From the NCBI GenBank assembly GCA_015655565.1, contig JAATEU010000267.1, positions 1 to 12,319 of the forward strand: a stretch of 12,319 nucleotides of DNA. Reading direction: 5' to 3'. The first letter of the stretch is position 1. Each line of letters begins with the position of its first letter. The notes below the pieces were generated by a model. It saw nothing but the letters and a program-made list of their open reading frames with translations. It ran no database searches and was not told the origin of the DNA. Source of the stretch: Clostridiales bacterium. GTDB lineage: Bacteria; Bacillota; Clostridia; Lachnospirales; Lachnospiraceae. Below, piece by piece: positions 4,082 to 11,813 of this stretch. Position numbers and translations under genes: made by a program.

Positions 4082-4819
4082 CTACTCCTCCGCTGCCTCA
4101 ATGAAGAAGTCCACTCGTCTGTTTTTAGCCCTTCCAACCGTGGTATCGTTGTCGGCAATAGGATAGAACTCACTGTAGCCGACAGCAGAAAATTTCTTCG
4201 GCTCAAATTCGGATATCTCCAAAAGCCGTCTCAGAACATTAACAGCCCGGCTTGTAGACAGTTCCCAGTTACTATCAAACTGTTTGGTGTTTATTGGAAG
4301 GTTGTCGGTGTGTCCCTCTATCCGTATTATTTTAATAGAGTCGTCATATACTGTCAGTATATCTGAAATCTTGTTAAGTAAGGGTTCCGCAGTGGGATTG
4401 ATATCGGCCCGGCCTGAGTCAAAAAAAACGGAAGCCGCCACACGTAACAGGATTTCTTTATTACCTTGCTTCGTTACGCTCAGCTGATTAGAAAGTCCGG
4501 TCTCATTGATGTAAGCTTTTATGTATTCGTAGAGGTTATTAAAGCTTTCCTGGTCGGGCAAGACGCTGTCTTGCCCTGGCAATATACTGTCATGGCTGGG
4601 CAATATTGTTGATTCCGCGAATTCAGCTATTACATTTTGTCCGTTCGCCGACGTGGACTTGGATGCTTCAATCGCTTGACTCATCATGGCAAATGAAAAC
4701 AGAATCACGAATATCGCAAGCAAGTCTGTCATCAGGTCACTATAACTATCCTGCCAATTAGCTTCGTCACCATCCTCATCTTCATCGTTTAATCTGCTGA
4801 ATTTACTTCTGCTATTCAT
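4082..4819 (-). CDS. motB: MotB, flagellar stator peptidoglycan-anchoring subunit
   Basis: MotB (245 aa) anchors the ion-driven MotA/MotB stator to peptidoglycan. A charged cytoplasmic N-terminus rich in Asp/Glu leads into one membrane helix (about 28-46, DLMTDLLAIFVILFSFAMM). D28 in the SYSDLMTD motif matches the ion-carrying aspartate of E. coli MotB (YADFMTA). A periplasmic linker follows, then an OmpA/MotB peptidoglycan-binding domain (about 105-240) with FFDSGRADI, EGHTDNLPI, LSTSRAVNVL and KNRRVDFFI. The linker holds three imperfect 7-residue tandem repeats (72-92). The ATG overlaps the motA stop as ATGA, so translation is probably coupled. Ion choice (H+ or Na+) cannot be settled here; a soluble or non-flagellar MotAB-like role is unlikely given the sigma-D promoter. 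Confidence 0.93.
   Translation of the reverse strand: MNSRSKFSRLNDEDEDGDEANWQDSYSDLMTDLLAIFVILFSFAMMSQAIEASKSTSANGQNVIAEFAESTILPSHDSILPGQDSVLPDQESFNNLYEYIKAYINETGLSNQLSVTKQGNKEILLRVAASVFFDSGRADINPTAEPLLNKISDILTVYDDSIKIIRIEGHTDNLPINTKQFDSNWELSTSRAVNVLRRLLEISEFEPKKFSAVGYSEFYPIADNDTTVGRAKNRRVDFFIEAAEE
4544..4606 (-). repeat. Three 21-bp tandem repeats in the motB linker
   Basis: Three 21-bp units (4586-4606, 4565-4585, 4544-4564, reading the minus strand) encode ILPSHDS, ILPGQDS and VLPDQES, MotB residues 72-92. The units are imperfect at DNA level. They lie between the membrane helix/plug region and the peptidoglycan-binding domain and would change linker length if copy number varied. Confidence 0.7.
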
Positions 4820-5643
4820 AGTTGACTAGTCATCTCCTTTGCTTTAAATGCATCGTCCTGCTCCTGCTCCTTTTCCTCTGGTGCATCCGGGTCTAAATTC
4901 GCATATGCCGATAATTCTTCTTTTATTAGCTTGGGATTTTTCCCCTGCTGAATAGCTGCAAGTCCCTCAATTAGCAATTCTCTTCTTGATTCTTCTTCTT
5001 TATTCATAATCTTCAACCTTTTAGCCAGTGGCGAAAATACTATATAAGCTATGAAAGCTCCATAAAATGAGGAAACCAGTTCAAGTGCCATCATAGGTCC
5101 CAGCGCAGTTGGATCTTCTAAGTTATTTAACATAGGTATAAGACCTACATAGGTTCCAAGGAGACCTAATGCCGGTGCTGTAGCTGCTATCATATCTAAC
5201 ATTGAAGCCCCTTTTTGATGTCTTTGTTTCATGAAGTAGGTTGAGCCCTCCAATAAATTTCTGAGTTGCTCCTCGTCTGCGCCGTCCACGATAAGCTGTA
5301 TTCCTTTCTTCACGAAATCATCCTCAGTAAACTGATCAACAAAATCTTCAAGAGCCAGTATGCCTTCTCTTCTTGATATTTCAGCGAACTTTACTAAAAT
5401 AACGATATCTTCTCTTAAATCATATTCATCCTTTTTAAAAGCCCTTTTTATAACTGACCCGATAGTTTTTAGCCTTTGGGCCGGAAAAGCTATTACAACG
5501 GCTCCCAATGTACCGCCAAATATAATAAATGCCGATGGTAAATTCCAGAATAAAATCGGCTCTCCCGTTACTATTATTGAACCAACTACAAAGGATACAC
5601 CTATTATCAGTCCAATCAGTGTTGTGTTTCTTAATTTTGACAA
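4816..5643 (-). CDS. motA: MotA, flagellar stator ion-channel subunit
   Basis: MotA (275 aa) is the membrane subunit that couples ion flow to flagellar torque. Four membrane segments are visible at about 8-26, 35-52, 152-172 and 183-206. They are separated by the long cytoplasmic loop that contacts the rotor, including ISRREGILALE (89-99). Family motifs are FGGTLGAVVIAFP, ATAPALGLLGTYVGLIPML (with the conserved prolines) and LGPMMALELVSSFYGA. The start is TTG at 5643, supported by AGGAGG (5652-5657) 8 bp upstream. The C-terminal tail is acidic and extends past the usual end. A sigma-D-type promoter lies about 150 bp upstream, and the stop overlaps the motB start. Confidence 0.94.
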   Translation of the reverse strand: MSKLRNTTLIGLIIGVSFVVGSIIVTGEPILFWNLPSAFIIFGGTLGAVVIAFPAQRLKTIGSVIKRAFKKDEYDLREDIVILVKFAEISRREGILALEDFVDQFTEDDFVKKGIQLIVDGADEEQLRNLLEGSTYFMKQRHQKGASMLDMIAATAPALGLLGTYVGLIPMLNNLEDPTALGPMMALELVSSFYGAFIAYIVFSPLAKRLKIMNKEEESRRELLIEGLAAIQQGKNPKLIKEELSAYANLDPDAPEEKEQEQDDAFKAKEMTSQL

Positions 5644-6156: not shown

Positions 6157-6399
6157 ATGGCTGTTGAATTTGATTATGATGATGAATACTGCACTGGCTG
6201 TATGGCCTGTGTCCAAGCATGCAAGGACTTCTATGATCTTCCTTGTGGTAATAATTTTCGTACCGTTACTGTAACAGAGGCATTTAAGGGCGACGGTACT
6301 TTGGAGGTAACTTTTAAAAGCCGATGCCAAAACCCCTGTAAGAATCATGTCTGTGTCCCTGCTTGTCCTATAAGTCTGATTACCGTAAAGAAGGAGTAG
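6157..6399 (+). CDS. Two-cluster [4Fe-4S] electron-transfer protein, half-length DmsB-like
   Basis: This 80-residue ferredoxin-like subunit probably passes electrons to the reductase encoded next. Two cysteine sets are visible: C12-x2-C15-x2-C18-x3-C22 (CTGCMACVQACKDF) and C57-x3-C61-x4-C66-x3-C70 followed by Pro, enough for two [4Fe-4S] clusters. The opening closely follows the first half of E. coli DmsB (CTGCKTCELACKDF), but that protein is about 205 residues with four clusters. Here the second half is absent and the stop is clean. No signal peptide or membrane helix is present. A GGGGAG stands 9 bp before the ATG. The next start codon lies 8 bp after the stop, so the two genes form one operon. 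A small ferredoxin of another pathway is possible but less likely in this setting. Confidence 0.85.
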   Translation: MAVEFDYDDEYCTGCMACVQACKDFYDLPCGNNFRTVTVTEAFKGDGTLEVTFKSRCQNPCKNHVCVPACPISLITVKKE

Positions 6400-6407
6400 A
6401 TAATACC

Positions 6408-9296
6408 ATGAATTCAACCATTAAAGCCTTTACCAGGCTTCCTGCTGTATATACTTTTTTCGGTAAGACCTTTCTTACCTGCCCGGCTCAATGTTTAGAG
6501 GATTATAACCTCTGCCGTTCCTTGTTTTTTACGGAATGTAACGTTGATATCTGCAAAGTTTCCCAGGAAGAGTTTAGTTCCATAATAGAAGATACTTGTG
6601 GTGATCATATCTTCCTGTGGGAATCCGTCTACCATGGAAATCAAGGGACCTTACTTGATGCAAACACTTTAATTGTGCAAGAAATATACGAACACTTTCA
6701 CCTAAAGGCAAACCCGTCCTTTCATCAGCTGTGTGACCACTTAAGCTTTGAATTATTATTTGCCGGACATTTATCTTCCTTGTTTAGCAAAGGGACAGAG
6801 GAATATCCAAATGGGCTCTTATACTATCTTCGGAATTATATAAAAAATCATGTCCTTTTTTTAGTAAGTAACGTATGGCCTCATACTTATGGTTATTATA
6901 AAGAATGGCTTATTTTCCTGGAACAGGAACTGCGGGAGCACCTTACTGCCATTGATACACTCTTAGGACCGGTTAAATACACAAAAGATGAACTGGCCGA
7001 AATTCTTTCAGAAGGTATCAAAGAATTTATGGGTGCAGGAGAACCTTACGGTTTTATTCGTACAGACGCTGCCAATGTATGTAACCGGGTATTTCACTCC
7101 TCCGGACGCAATAACTGCGGCGGAAGGTGTGTCATAAATGTCCATGAAAAAAAAGGGAATATCTTAAGGCTTTCATCTGTTTCTGATAAAACCAATTGTC
7201 CAAAGGCCTGTGTACGTGGATATGGATATCGGCAGACCAATCTTTCCCCGGAGCGGCTCCGTTACCCTCTAAAACGTGTGGGAGAGCGGGGAGAAGGACG
7301 GTTTGTCAGGGTTACCTGGCAGGAAGCCATTGATACTATCACCAGTGAAATCAAACGAATCACGAAAATCTACGGACCCGAATCCAGATACGTAAACTAC
7401 GCTTCCGGCGTCAATGCCATGATACGTCCAAACCTGATGGCAACGCGGTTATTTTCATTAGACGGAGGTTTCCTTGACAGCTATAACAGCTACAGCAGTG
7501 CCTGCACCGATATTGCGACGCCTTACACCTATGGTACCGGTTATACCGGAAGCAGCAGCCATTTCTTTGGGCAGTCCAAATTGATTATCTTATGGGGCCA
7601 TAATCCTTCTGAGACCATTTTCGGTTCTGAACTGTTAAAAGAATTACTAAAAGCCAAGAAAAATGGCTGCAAAATCATCTCCATAGATCCCCGCTTTAGT
7701 GACACAACAGCAGCTTTTGCTGACCGATGGATTGGAATCAAACCTTCCACCGACAGCGCCTTAACCGATGCCATGGCTTACGTCATCCTTTCTGAAGGGC
7801 TGGAAGACAGGGATTTTATGGATACATTCTGCCTTGGCTTTGACGAAGACCACATGCCGGAAGGTATTCCTTGTGGCGAAAGCTATGAAAGTTATCTGTT
7901 TGGCAAAAAGGATGGCATAGTAAAAAACCCGGAATGGGCAGAAACTATCACCGGAATTCCAAAAGATACCATCATCTCCTTGTCCAGGGCATATGCAACA
8001 AGTAAACCGGCTGCCCTGGTGCAGGGGCTTGGCCCCCAGCGAACCTGTAACGGCGAGCAGACGGCAAGAAGTTCAACTCTGCTGCCTTGTCTTACGGGAA
8101 ATGTGGGTATCCCCGGCGGTTATGCTGGCGGCAATGGATTTATACAGCTCAGGCCTATGCCGGTCATCCATTCCCTGCCAAATCCTTATCCGGCAGTAAT
8201 ACCAAGCTTCTTGTGGACCGATGCCGTTGTCCGTGGAAAGGACATGACCCAAACAGACGACATGATCCGTGGAGCAGAACGTTTGAAATCCCCTGTTAAA
8301 TTAATATTTAACTTAGCCGGCAATACTTTAATCAACCAACATTCCGATGTCAACAAGACGGCTCAGATACTAAAGGATACCAGTCTTTGTGAATTCATCG
8401 TGGTATCTGATCTGTTTATGACACCAAGTGCAAAGTTTGCAGATATCCTTCTGCCGGGCACCTCTTTTTTAGAAAGTGAGAATATTACTTATCCCTGGAG
8501 GGAAGGCGATTTCTTTTTATACAATCCAAAAGTAATCGATCCTTTATTTGAAAGCCGGTTTGAATATGACTGGCTTAAAGAGCTTGCTGCAAATCTTGGT
8601 GTCTATGAAGAATTTACCGCTGGTAAGGATACCGTCCTTGATTGGGTAAAGGCCGCTTATGAAGACTGTAAGAAGAACGAAGCAGCTCTTCTTCCGCCCT
8701 TCGCGGAATTTTCTGAGGGCGGAGGATATTTCTACAAGGAACCTTCTAACTTCATAGCCTTTCAAAAGCAAATTGAGGATTTTGAACACAATCCATTTTC
8801 TACGCCTTCCGGTAAAATTGAGATTTTTTCCAAAGCTCTTTATGATTTTCATAAACCGGAAGAGATTCCTGCCATTCCCAAATATATAGAAGGCTTTGAA
8901 GGACCTTTAGATCCACTGACGAAGAAATATCCTCTGCAGCTTATAGGCTGGCACACCAAACGGCGCTGTCATTCCACTCACGACAACAATCCCTGGATGG
9001 AAGAAATCGAACCACCAAGAGTGTGGATTAATCCAACCGATGCCCAAAACAGGAATATTGAAGACGGCCAGCTTACCAAAATCTTTAATGACCGCGGTAC
9101 CATACACATGAAAGCTCATGTAACCAACCGGATCATTCCTGGTGTTATCGCAATCTCCCAAGGTGTCTGGTATACCCCTGACAAGGACGGTACTGATATT
9201 CGTGGCAATATTAACACCTTAACAACCCTGCGGCCAACCCCTCTTGCCAAAGGCAATCCCCAGCATACTAATCTTGCGGACATAAAAGGGCTGTAG
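6408..9296 (+). CDS. dmsA: TorD-like chaperone domain fused to DmsA-type molybdopterin oxidoreductase
   Basis: This is a 962-residue reductase of the DMSO reductase family (bis-MGD molybdenum cofactor), probably acting on S- or N-oxides. Residues 1 to about 190 look like a TorD/DmsD maturation chaperone: WESVY at 71-75, helices with CDHLSFELLFAGHL (109-122), and a C-terminal helical bundle. From about 220 on it follows E. coli DmsA closely: RLRYPLKRVGERGEG, YSSAC with the likely Mo-ligand serine (363 or 364), GHNPSET, PAALVQGLGPQR, NTLINQHS, SAKFADILLPGTS, TPSGKIEI, and a C-terminus with RPTPLAKGNPQHTNL. The Fe-S motif keeps C237, C241 and C268, but the usual first Cys is Ser/Gly (S232-G233). 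No Tat signal is present. ATG 6408 is set by AAGGAG (6391-6396); an in-frame ATG at 6363 overlaps the preceding gene. Membrane anchor DmsC is not nearby. The family is certain, the substrate unknown. Confidence 0.92.
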   Translation: MNSTIKAFTRLPAVYTFFGKTFLTCPAQCLEDYNLCRSLFFTECNVDICKVSQEEFSSIIEDTCGDHIFLWESVYHGNQGTLLDANTLIVQEIYEHFHLKANPSFHQLCDHLSFELLFAGHLSSLFSKGTEEYPNGLLYYLRNYIKNHVLFLVSNVWPHTYGYYKEWLIFLEQELREHLTAIDTLLGPVKYTKDELAEILSEGIKEFMGAGEPYGFIRTDAANVCNRVFHSSGRNNCGGRCVINVHEKKGNILRLSSVSDKTNCPKACVRGYGYRQTNLSPERLRYPLKRVGERGEGRFVRVTWQEAIDTITSEIKRITKIYGPESRYVNYASGVNAMIRPNLMATRLFSLDGGFLDSYNSYSSACTDIATPYTYGTGYTGSSSHFFGQSKLIILWGHNPSETIFGSELLKELLKAKKNGCKIISIDPRFSDTTAAFADRWIGIKPSTDSALTDAMAYVILSEGLEDRDFMDTFCLGFDEDHMPEGIPCGESYESYLFGKKDGIVKNPEWAETITGIPKDTIISLSRAYATSKPAALVQGLGPQRTCNGEQTARSSTLLPCLTGNVGIPGGYAGGNGFIQLRPMPVIHSLPNPYPAVIPSFLWTDAVVRGKDMTQTDDMIRGAERLKSPVKLIFNLAGNTLINQHSDVNKTAQILKDTSLCEFIVVSDLFMTPSAKFADILLPGTSFLESENITYPWREGDFFLYNPKVIDPLFESRFEYDWLKELAANLGVYEEFTAGKDTVLDWVKAAYEDCKKNEAALLPPFAEFSEGGGYFYKEPSNFIAFQKQIEDFEHNPFSTPSGKIEIFSKALYDFHKPEEIPAIPKYIEGFEGPLDPLTKKYPLQLIGWHTKRRCHSTHDNNPWMEEIEPPRVWINPTDAQNRNIEDGQLTKIFNDRGTIHMKAHVTNRIIPGVIAISQGVWYTPDKDGTDIRGNINTLTTLRPTPLAKGNPQHTNLADIKGL

Positions 9297-9401: not shown

Positions 9402-10460
9402 TCAAATATTATAATCAAAGTAATCAAGTACTATGTTAACAAGTTTCTTTGTATCATTCAGATTTACTAAACTTGTATCACCTGCATTTATTACCTGCTC
9501 TAAATCCGTTGCAATTGCAATCAGGCTTTCCTTCTTGCACACACTTTCCTTGGAAATGCCTTTTCTCACAACCTCAATTTTAGGATATTCACTATATTTT
9601 AGTCCCTCCAATATAATCAAATCCATATCCTTCATGGACTCAATGATATCTGTTTCCTTTTTCACAAGTTTCTGGCTCATGACTGCAGCATGTTCCCTGG
9701 AATAGATTCCCGCCATAGACGCACCTGCACTCATAAAGCGCAGGGTATCCGTTCCTTCCCTATCAATGGTAAAATCATGTCCGTCATGCTTCACTACCCC
9801 AATTCTAGGAAACTCATCAATCAGTTCATTTATAATTCTCTCAATAAGACAGGTCTTTCCACTGTTTTTTATCCCACTGACACAAAATACAACAGGCTTA
9901 ATGGCTTGCTTATATTCTTCATTTGTATTAATATTGCAAACTACTTTTTTGTCAAAACAGGTAAACTTAAGCGGGATGTACTTCGTGGGGCAACGATCTA
10001 ATAGGGTTGAAAGCCGATACTCTTTCTCGAGAAGCATCTGCACAATAACATTACACACTCTTTTAGAATATATGGCACATAGCGGCTGCTTTCTCTTATC
10101 ATCTTCCAGGATATAACAGTCATAGTCACTGGATATAAATTCTTTCATATACTCCACTAATTCTTTTTTGATAAAGGGCATATCGGTGGCGCAGACAAAG
10201 ACATAATCATTTCTGGCATGGTAAAGCAGCTGGCGGATACCCTCCAGGGGGCCAGCTCCCTTATATTCGTCCTCCACACAGGAATAAGGCAGAACGGTAT
10301 ACTTATCCATATAGTCCACTGATACCAGCTGTTCATTAAAACCGATTAATTCCTTCATGATCCGATTTAAAAATGTCTCTTGATTTAACTTAAGCAGTGC
10401 TTTATTGGTTCCCATCCTGGTACTTTTGCCACCAATTAACACACCAACACTTAACTTCAT
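9402..10460 (-). CDS. mobAB: MobA-MobB fusion, molybdenum cofactor guanylyltransferase with GTP-binding adaptor
   Basis: This 352-residue protein joins two steps of MGD formation. Residues 1 to about 185 are MobA, which adds GMP to molybdopterin: VLIGGKSTRMGTNKALL (7-23) is the GTP-binding loop, and GAGPLEGI (68-75) and CATDMPFI (90-97) carry the usual glycine turn and metal-binding aspartate. Residues about 188-352 are MobB: Walker A GIKNSGKT (196-203), VKHDGHDFTIDREGTDTLRF (223-242) and LIILEGLKYSEYPKIEVVR (281-299). The ATG at 10460 has AAGGAGG with 8-bp spacing. It lies 81 bp downstream of moeA on the same strand and probably shares its transcript. The dmsA-type enzyme converging on it is a bis-MGD enzyme and an obvious client. 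Confidence 0.93.
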   Translation of the reverse strand: MKLSVGVLIGGKSTRMGTNKALLKLNQETFLNRIMKELIGFNEQLVSVDYMDKYTVLPYSCVEDEYKGAGPLEGIRQLLYHARNDYVFVCATDMPFIKKELVEYMKEFISSDYDCYILEDDKRKQPLCAIYSKRVCNVIVQMLLEKEYRLSTLLDRCPTKYIPLKFTCFDKKVVCNINTNEEYKQAIKPVVFCVSGIKNSGKTCLIERIINELIDEFPRIGVVKHDGHDFTIDREGTDTLRFMSAGASMAGIYSREHAAVMSQKLVKKETDIIESMKDMDLIILEGLKYSEYPKIEVVRKGISKESVCKKESLIAIATDLEQVINAGDTSLVNLNDTKKLVNIVLDYFDYNI

Positions 10461-10541: not shown

Positions 10542-11813
10542 CTAAATCATCACTATCTGAACTTCCATCCCTGCCTTTAATTCTGCCCCTGCCGGCTGTA
10601 CAACTATGCAATTACAGTCAAGCATATTAGACAATACGGAGGACGCATGTGTCAGCGCATTTATTACTACTTTCCCATTTGCTTCCTTTGCCCTCACAAT
10701 TCTGGTTAACTTGCTTTTCTTTAGATAACCTTCTTCTATAACAGCCTTCCTTGTTTCATTCCTTTTAGAAGCATCCTGTGTAAAATAAGCTGCTACCGGT
10801 AAAAACAACATATGATAATGGGCAAGTACTGCGTAGGGATTACCGGAAAAACTAAGGATCCAAGTATCCTTACATCTTGCACATATGGTAGGTGTTCCCG
10901 GCTTAATCTTGATGCCCTGATAAATCTCATCACTAATCTGCCCCAGCACTTTAGGCATCAAATCTTTTTTGCCAACGGACACGCCCCCTGTAGTAATGAT
11001 TATATCCGCCTTATTTGTCTGTTGCAGGAGAAACTCTTCTATCTCTTTCTCATCATCCACAAGATGATGCCGAAAGACTACCTCAATTCCCTTACTATCT
11101 AAGGCTGTTTTTAAAATATAGCCACAGCTGTTATATATTTTACCTGGTAGAGGTTCCTGCCCAGAAATTACAAACTCTGTTCCCGCCCCCGCAAGCTTCT
11201 CTTCTTTAACAAAAAGTACTGGTTTCAATTCTTCGAGAAACCCCGGCTCCAGCAGTTCTGTCCCTATACTCAGCACACCTGCTTTCATGGGTTTATAAAC
11301 AGAAACTTTAAGGATACCCAGGCTAGCTAATACCCCAATTGCGATTTCATCAAGTTTACGGTACTTTGAAAGCACCAACTGCCCCTGTTTTAAGTCCTCC
11401 CCTACCTTACAATAATTCTCATAGGGTTCCGCATCTTTATATATGGTCACCTTCCGTTCTCCATAATCCGTATCCTCCTGCCTGATTACGCAGTCAAAAC
11501 CAATCGGAACGAAGCTGCCTGTCATCACCCTCACTGCTTCACCTTGACCGGCAGTTATATCTTTACATTCCCCTGCTAATATCTCCCCTACTACCTGAAG
11601 CTTTTTTGGTTCATCCTTAGATGTGCCCTTACTATCCTCGCTTCGGATAGCATATCCGTCCATGGCTGACTTTGGAAAATGTGGTACATTCATAGTGGCA
11701 TAGAGGTTCTCAGCAAGAATTCGTCCTCTTGATTCCAGAATCGATACTGTTTCCGTTTGTTTCTGAACTCCCATGGAAGTACTGATTATCTTAATTATAT
11801 TATCCAATTCCAC
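10542..11813 (-). CDS. moeA: MoeA, molybdopterin molybdenumtransferase
   Basis: MoeA (423 aa) inserts molybdate into adenylylated molybdopterin in the cytoplasm. Motifs in order: SAMDGYAIR (49-57), VRVMTGSFVPIGFDCVIRQE (94-113), LSIGTELLEPG (181-191), ADIIITTGGVSVGKKD (269-284, the MPT-binding loop), KIKPGTPT (302-309), SGNPYAVLAH (323-332, where most family members have GLPGNPVS) and the C-terminal beta-barrel domain. About 25-30 residues after GTELLEPG (192-221) look inserted, since KIYNS normally follows closely. The start is GTG at 11813 with AGAGGTG 7 bp upstream; the frame is closed just above. It is first in the moeA-mobAB unit behind a consensus promoter. No mogA, moaA or moaC is in the window. 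Confidence 0.93.
   Translation of the reverse strand: MELDNIIKIISTSMGVQKQTETVSILESRGRILAENLYATMNVPHFPKSAMDGYAIRSEDSKGTSKDEPKKLQVVGEILAGECKDITAGQGEAVRVMTGSFVPIGFDCVIRQEDTDYGERKVTIYKDAEPYENYCKVGEDLKQGQLVLSKYRKLDEIAIGVLASLGILKVSVYKPMKAGVLSIGTELLEPGFLEELKPVLFVKEEKLAGAGTEFVISGQEPLPGKIYNSCGYILKTALDSKGIEVVFRHHLVDDEKEIEEFLLQQTNKADIIITTGGVSVGKKDLMPKVLGQISDEIYQGIKIKPGTPTICARCKDTWILSFSGNPYAVLAHYHMLFLPVAAYFTQDASKRNETRKAVIEEGYLKKSKLTRIVRAKEANGKVVINALTHASSVLSNMLDCNCIVVQPAGAELKAGMEVQIVMI

Follow-up and report, generated by a model that had tools for sequence, protein, structure and literature searches.

A TorD/DmsD-type chaperone fused to a DmsA-type molybdoenzyme: a recurrent minority design of probably cytosolic enzymes

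In a 12,319-nt contig from a Clostridiales bacterium of the family Lachnospiraceae (GenBank assembly GCA_015655565.1, contig JAATEU010000267.1; hereafter the window), one gene encodes a TorD/DmsD-type chaperone domain in the same chain as a DmsA-type molybdopterin oxidoreductase. The draft genome to which it belongs is split into 632 contigs and is 63% complete. Our results support a model, which we regard as probable, whereby this protein belongs to a cytosolic branch of S-/N-oxide reductases of the dimethyl sulfoxide (DMSO) reductase type that carry their own TorD/DmsD chaperone, acting in cis on the mature enzyme; reduction of S- or N-oxides, assigned by homology, and the substrate are both putative. 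More tentatively, and with slightly less than even confidence, we propose that the branch is widespread and apparently undescribed, that TorD stays permanently docked on the mature enzyme, and that many members are coupled to an NAD(P)H flavoprotein and not to the quinol pool.

The N-terminal part of the protein matches PF02613 (38.1 and 41.4 bits against a curated cut-off of 22.2) and, by profile, the solved DmsD and TorD structures, and it is predicted to adopt an all-helical TorD-type fold, its matches in structure comparison including 8jzd (NarJ with the NarG signal peptide). A first-pass annotation of the window, made from the letters alone, had seen a TorD/DmsD-like chaperone in the first ~190 residues, and these matches bear it out. 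TorD structure 1n1c was not among the structural matches of the domain, which excludes nothing, and phmmer with the TorD part alone matched no TorD structure. The remainder matches PF00384 and PF01568 and passes the DmsA/YnfE subfamily model TIGR02166 (881.3 bits, cut-off 777.7); its nearest solved sequence is 1eu1 (E 5.5e-81), and in structure comparison it folds closest to TorA, MtsZ and DMSO reductase. Because residues 1-235 contain no RR, KR or RK pair, the protein lacks a twin-arginine translocation (Tat) leader, as the same annotation had stated. The full-length predicted model has whole-chain scores of pLDDT 91.2 and pTM 0.92, and we read the TorD and DmsA parts of this model as sitting in a defined arrangement. 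The start used is the ATG at 6408, with a Shine-Dalgarno-like AAGGAG 11 nt upstream; a TTG at 6363 was rejected, since it would overlap the ferredoxin gene and the ATG has this site.

The same join recurs in many genomes. With the catalytic domain as query, the 12 best proteins (the window's own included) were all fused, and PF02613 and PF00384 occurred together in 78 of the 120 nearest proteins listed, again with the window's own, out of 6012 found. A shared-word search from residues 1-215 returned one homologue besides the window's own, the catalytic-domain search giving closer ones, while the TorD domain from another fused clade retrieved 61 proteins, 58 of them carrying both domains according to database Pfam calls. 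Homologous fusions turn up in many separate records at overall identities between 73% and about 44%; one is the 970-aa protein of Treponema primitia ZAS-2, whose gene sits on a 4.06-Mb contig. An assembly or base-calling artefact joining torD and dmsA, for which the fragmented draft assembly might speak, is rejected on this recurrence, and we assign it a negligible probability; likewise, no stop or frameshift, named as a refuting result in the first-pass annotation, splits the two parts. Among 397 genomes sampled from the window's family, 20 contained PF02613, six of them within TorD-DmsA frames of 965-1172 aa, and a phylum-wide sample of 398 genomes gave PF02613 in 79, in three of them within frames above 900 aa (the window's, and two judged by length only). 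The TorD-DmsA fusion is thus a design that recurs but stays in the minority. The domain order, for which a survey of Clostridia had been suggested, is present there but not confined to them, since fusions also occur in Synergistaceae, Spirochaetaceae and Erysipelotrichaceae. Cultured strains with a fused enzyme include Sporobacter termitidis DSM 10068 and Clostridium sp. DSM 17811.

Comparison of loci sets the fusions apart from enzymes with a Tat leader. Classes were assigned to the best 80 of 551 related named loci, and the resulting split covers those 80: 40 encode TorD-DmsA fusions, 18 a DmsA with a Tat leader (Tat-type; found in Bacillaceae, Tissierella and Sporomusa), and 22 a leaderless enzyme without TorD in the locus, three of which (L095, L116 and L119) begin at contig edges and are counted there provisionally. 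Within 4 kb of the gene, a separate TorD is present at 16 of the 18 Tat-type loci and at none of the 40 fused loci; in 14 of these 16, torD lies directly 5' of dmsA, the gene order that a fusion requires. DmsC is found near 11 of 18 Tat-type genes and near no fused gene (by a model built here, for which nine of the 11 loci were seeds and two seeds were confirmed by PF04976). An NAD(P)H-type flavoprotein, upstream or in the chain, accompanies 23 of the 40 fused genes and none of the Tat-type genes (eight of the 23 being seeds of the model built here). Of five fused loci from the window's family, one encodes DmsB and a flavoprotein separately, and in two DmsB is part of the chain (DmsB model built from related loci). 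A DmsB-TorD-DmsA single chain occurs in two Lachnospiraceae genomes; Erysipelotrichaceae have a flavoprotein-TorD-DmsA chain of about 1356 aa (L104, on which Pfam was run, and L076, L088, L097, L098, L099 and L102).

In relatives, torD mostly stands immediately before a Tat-leader dmsA on its 5' side; in the window's protein the two form one chain, with the leader gone and no membrane subunit gene seen. A single origin of all fusions is unsupported as a simple picture: the fused protein of Natroniella (L055) is placed inside the Tat-type clade, its TorD groups with free TorDs, and the fused label changes three times on a quick tree without the three contig-edge rows (six times with them; L059, L079 and L126, whose contigs equal those of L041, L045 and L046, duplicate these genomes and are not in the tree). 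To judge by the placement of the Natroniella protein, the join has apparently arisen more than once or been undone elsewhere.

Because the leader and DmsC are missing, and in view of the neighbouring genes and the distribution of TatC, we infer that the enzyme is cytosolic. A Tat motif before the catalytic domain (scored as RRx[FL][LIVMK]), carried by definition by 18 of 18 Tat-type proteins, occurs in two of the 40 fused proteins, both times inside a folded domain (L055 residue 79, L076 residue 330). TatC was found in 17 of 17 Tat-type genomes searched and in 11 of 37 fusion genomes (Fisher p 5e-7, not corrected for kinship; a number of the genomes are incomplete, and related genomes do not count as independent), as well as in six of the 18 genomes of the leaderless class; it was found in one congener of the window's organism and not in another. 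This search omitted L090 and the fused loci L083, L088, L098, L099, L102 and L127, covered L059/L079 as G048/G298, and, together with the search for TorD, took in 18 of the 22 leaderless loci. Export or membrane attachment by another route is very improbable in our view: it could draw on the fusion genomes that do have TatC and on a 265-aa membrane protein in L103 (2978-3775) that starts 4 nt past the fused gene and has neither a Pfam match nor a relative at other loci, but the fused proteins have no leader, no DmsC was found, DmsB-like and flavoprotein genes adjoin, and 26 of the 37 fusion genomes show no TatC match, compared with 0 of 17 Tat-type genomes. The other neighbours considered as anchors were SecF, a transport permease and PF09819-like proteins. 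Thus, the earlier suggestion that the enzyme stays in the cytoplasm emerges strengthened.

The chaperone domain appears to be maintained. W71, S73 and D110 are invariant in an alignment of 34 mixed free and fused TorDs, in one of 29 fused TorDs, and across the window's protein and the 14 nearest fused homologues selected for comparison. Purifying selection acts on the fused TorDs of relatives, with ratios of nonsynonymous to synonymous divergence (dN/dS) of 0.04-0.28 in 12 of 13 pairs, which were hand-picked and are not independent of one another (dS saturated in the remaining pair and above 2 in two more). The dN of TorD relative to that of DmsA has a median of 2.0 in fused proteins (13 pairs) versus 3.5 for free TorD (10 pairs), and TorD and DmsA distances are correlated (Mantel rho 0.75 for 45 fused rows, 0.72 for 61 rows). 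All PF02613 matches of 27 out of 31 fusion genomes lie in frames of more than 900 aa, so that no separate TorD is seen there; the fused TorD of L124 (G444) falls below PF02613 detection. That the domain is a relic, retained merely through being in frame, would agree with the low identity of fused TorDs to the window's (13-26%) and with leaderless relatives that manage without TorD; we give this explanation little credence in light of the purifying selection in relatives, the slower relative evolution than in free TorD, the residues invariant among the nearest fused homologues, and the retention of the domain over several phyla.

A different explanation is that the domain has lost its chaperone role and now serves a structural or docking purpose, either by binding ferredoxin or flavoprotein or by covering the cofactor funnel as a lid. 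In its favour, the domain remains joined to the enzyme, the full-length model has high overall confidence, DmsB or a flavoprotein may directly precede TorD in the chain, and the residue after D110 is Tyr in flavoprotein-linked fused proteins where free TorDs have His in the 34-sequence alignment (it is His111 in the window's protein). Nevertheless we consider this explanation unlikely, though less so than the relic, because the domain has W71, S73 and D110 in common with free TorDs and with DmsD, because the chaperone role would go unfilled in the 27 genomes in which no other TorD was found, and because leaderless relatives dock their partners, if any, without TorD.

We therefore favour the model of a chaperone acting in cis. 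A 2023 review describes chaperones of this family as binding the leader and, at a second site, the mature enzyme, and reports that DmsA without its leader still yields soluble, cytoplasmically active DmsAB, that TorD assists cofactor insertion even without a signal peptide, and that TorD binds MobA (PMC10609526). In our model, the TorD domain would fold first, hold the apo-enzyme open by way of this second site, which is known from work on NarJ, DmsD and TorD, favour insertion of the bis-molybdopterin guanine dinucleotide (bis-MGD) cofactor and then remain attached; the fusion would thereby drop the leader function of the chaperone and keep only the second function. Soluble partners would supply the electrons: in the window's case perhaps the 80-aa ferredoxin encoded upstream, and in many relatives a DmsB-like ferredoxin and the NAD(P)H-type flavoprotein. 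The adjoining MobA-MobB and MoeA genes fit cofactor loading in cis, but a MobA-like gene is found near only four of the 40 fused loci, so that the MobA-MobB neighbour is not general.

Several observations weigh against this model. The 11 fusion genomes with TatC include all five Synergistaceae searched, and the lack of a TatC match and of a second TorD in the window's genome is weak evidence at its level of completeness. Membrane proteins of other or unassigned kind follow some fused genes, so that a membrane partner of a new type may exist. No flavoprotein is found at 17 of the 40 fused loci, 11 of which have more than 2.5 kb of upstream sequence; the flavoprotein model has no match in the window, its matches elsewhere in this incomplete genome are weak (28-30% identical), and the only ferredoxin-type partner in the window is half-size. 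Selection was measured in relatives and not in the window's lineage, whose TorD stem is long. Finally, 16 of 18 genomes with a leaderless unfused enzyme have no TorD-family match, nor do G175 and G058, and the idea that every leaderless relative keeps TorD is rejected. A cytosolic member of the family can thus manage without TorD. Hence, the first-pass reading is supported as a whole, but its notion of a chaperone kept for cofactor loading does not stand as a strict need of every enzyme in the family. The fused domain may instead raise yield or stability without being indispensable, which would agree with work on E. coli TorD described in the same review, where the absence of TorD leaves twofold less TorA, which is still active (PMC10609526).

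The fusion has counterparts in known systems. With DmsABC and free DmsD, as in E. coli and the Tat-type loci, it shares the DmsA/YnfE catalytic part, the TorD/DmsD chaperone and a DmsB-like ferredoxin nearby, and it differs in being one chain and not two, without a Tat leader, with no DmsC gene seen and with a half-size DmsB. NarJ is likewise a TorD/NarJ-family chaperone, of a nitrate reductase, NarG, that faces the cytoplasm, but it is a separate protein. Mycobacterial NarX has one NarJ-like part and is not known to be a full catalytic subunit. NarX, described as a 'fused-domain nitrate reductase', similarly contains components of a respiratory molybdoenzyme complex within a single chain, but it belongs to another family and its function is called unclear (PMC7759655). 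TorA-TorD and DorA/MtsZ/BisC include the solved proteins that come closest to the catalytic part in sequence and fold (DMSO reductase, TorA and MtsZ), and TorD is able to act without a signal peptide, according to the review (PMC10609526), whereas TorA and DorA are periplasmic and TorD is free. Eukaryotic molybdenum cofactor sulfurase also combines maturation partners in one polypeptide, as outlined in that source (PMC10609526), but it joins two maturation factors and the fusion here joins a factor with its client enzyme.

The first-pass author knew of no characterised enzyme of this design, and we found no description of a TorD-DmsA fusion in the open-access literature, a search outside which most subscription papers and preprints fall. 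These proteins and their Pfam architecture can already be seen in databases, where names like 'anaerobic dimethyl sulfoxide reductase subunit A' are used. According to the review, how the chaperone recognises its enzyme, in a way consistent with complex stoichiometry, still lacks a definitive answer and 'awaits further investigation' (PMC10609526). In a natural fusion the ratio is fixed at 1:1 and the signal-peptide function is absent, so that the second function can be studied alone. If TorD does stay docked on the enzyme, the fusion would be a naturally trapped 1:1 chaperone-client complex that would show where a TorD-family chaperone grips a bis-MGD enzyme during cofactor insertion. It is also tempting to speculate that uncoupling this type of reductase from Tat export and the membrane would give anaerobes, many without a TatC match, a soluble electron sink.

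In the catalytic part, the first canonical FS0 cysteine is replaced by Gly, so that the four-Cys FS0 motif, which is typical of DmsA/YnfE proteins but does not belong to the curated test, is absent even though the TIGR02166 cut-off is still passed. C-x3-C-x3-C is missing in 77 of the 80 related loci, from all three classes, and kept in three leaderless loci only; loss of this Cys is therefore a trait of the branch, and a link to the fusion is rejected, since the Cys is also missing from Tat-type relatives and from most leaderless ones. Ser363 aligns with the Mo-ligand Ser of DMSO reductase.

The upstream 80-aa ferredoxin scores 52.9 bits (E 9.4e-16) against our DmsB model and 32.9 bits (E 5.8e-8) against NCBIfam DMSO_dmsB, far under the cut-off of 214.1; the window thus contains a half-size, 8-Cys protein only and no four-cluster DmsB. 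The DmsC model has no match in the 12-kb window, from an incomplete genome, or in five fused loci of its family. The PF09819-like protein is a small conserved membrane protein near nine of the 40 fused genes and one leaderless gene, with no match among the open reading frames of the window; three tested copies just pass PF09819 (ABC_cobalt, permease component) and the others do not match. If it is part of a vitamin-type importer, it could hint at the substrate.

Table 1 Features of the window and of PF09819-like genes at related loci (L numbers; positions within each locus)
Feature	Position	Strand	Basis
TorD-DmsA fusion protein, 962 aa, without Tat leader	6408..9296	+	Single open frame, domain profiles, homologous fusions
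TorD/DmsD-type chaperone domain, residues 1-190, predicted all-helical	6408..6977	+	PF02613, profile to DmsD/TorD, predicted fold
W71-E72-S73, at P-W-G-S stretch of DmsD	6618..6626	+	Alignments; W71 and S73 invariant in aligned fused and free TorDs
D110-H111, at E-D-H stretch of DmsD	6735..6740	+	Alignments; D110 invariant in aligned fused and free TorDs
Linker, residues 191-226, poorly conserved	6978..7085	+	Column conservation in alignment
DmsA/YnfE-type molybdopterin oxidoreductase, residues 227-960	7086..9287	+	TIGR02166, PF00384, PF01568; nearest solved sequence 1eu1; folds
FS0-type Fe-S motif, G-x3-C-x3-C-x26-C	7104..7211	+	Sequence
Ser363, invariant, at place of Mo-ligand Ser of DMSO reductase	7494..7496	+	Alignments
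80-aa ferredoxin resembling first half of DmsB, 8 Cys	6157..6399	+	DmsB model made here, Fer4 models; ends 8 nt before fusion start
MobA-MobB fusion, Mo cofactor guanylylation	9402..10460	-	PF12804, PF03205, NCBIfam
MoeA-type molybdopterin molybdotransferase	10542..11813	-	PF03453, PF00994, PF03454
PF09819-like membrane protein	L058 3256-3879, L060 8811-9584, L065 8940-9530, L071 8757-9557	+	
PF09819-like membrane protein	L083 3665-4213, L088 8743-9303, L097 8885-9430, L098 6087-6620, L099 8761-9312, L110 4558-5115	-	

A second type of TorD fusion occurs in the window's family, in which TorD is joined to an AsrA-like Fe-S protein (PF02613 and PF17179). Seven frames of 573-672 aa represent it, two checked by Pfam and two more by reading: L022 1345-3282, L024 1210-3021, and frames of 573-619 aa in G343, G103, G224, G050 and G395. 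Next to these fusions lie the C-terminus of a molybdoenzyme and a gene resembling dmsB. Leaderless DmsA-like enzymes in genomes without a TorD-family match are seen in L046 (4914-7115), L047 (5929-8103) and 16 further genomes. Another leaderless DmsA-like protein, in L080 (5932-8808), has a C-terminal GDSL lipase/acylhydrolase domain according to Pfam, and L100 (5953-8823), of similar length, is a candidate second case. An apparent 214-aa extension of the L101 enzyme was rejected as out of frame with the upstream gene, the start of the enzyme lying later. Within the window, MobA and MobB are themselves joined in one gene beside the TorD-DmsA fusion, and two overlapping genes on the minus strand (4082-5643) resemble the flagellar motor proteins MotB and MotA, as named from a reading of their translations.

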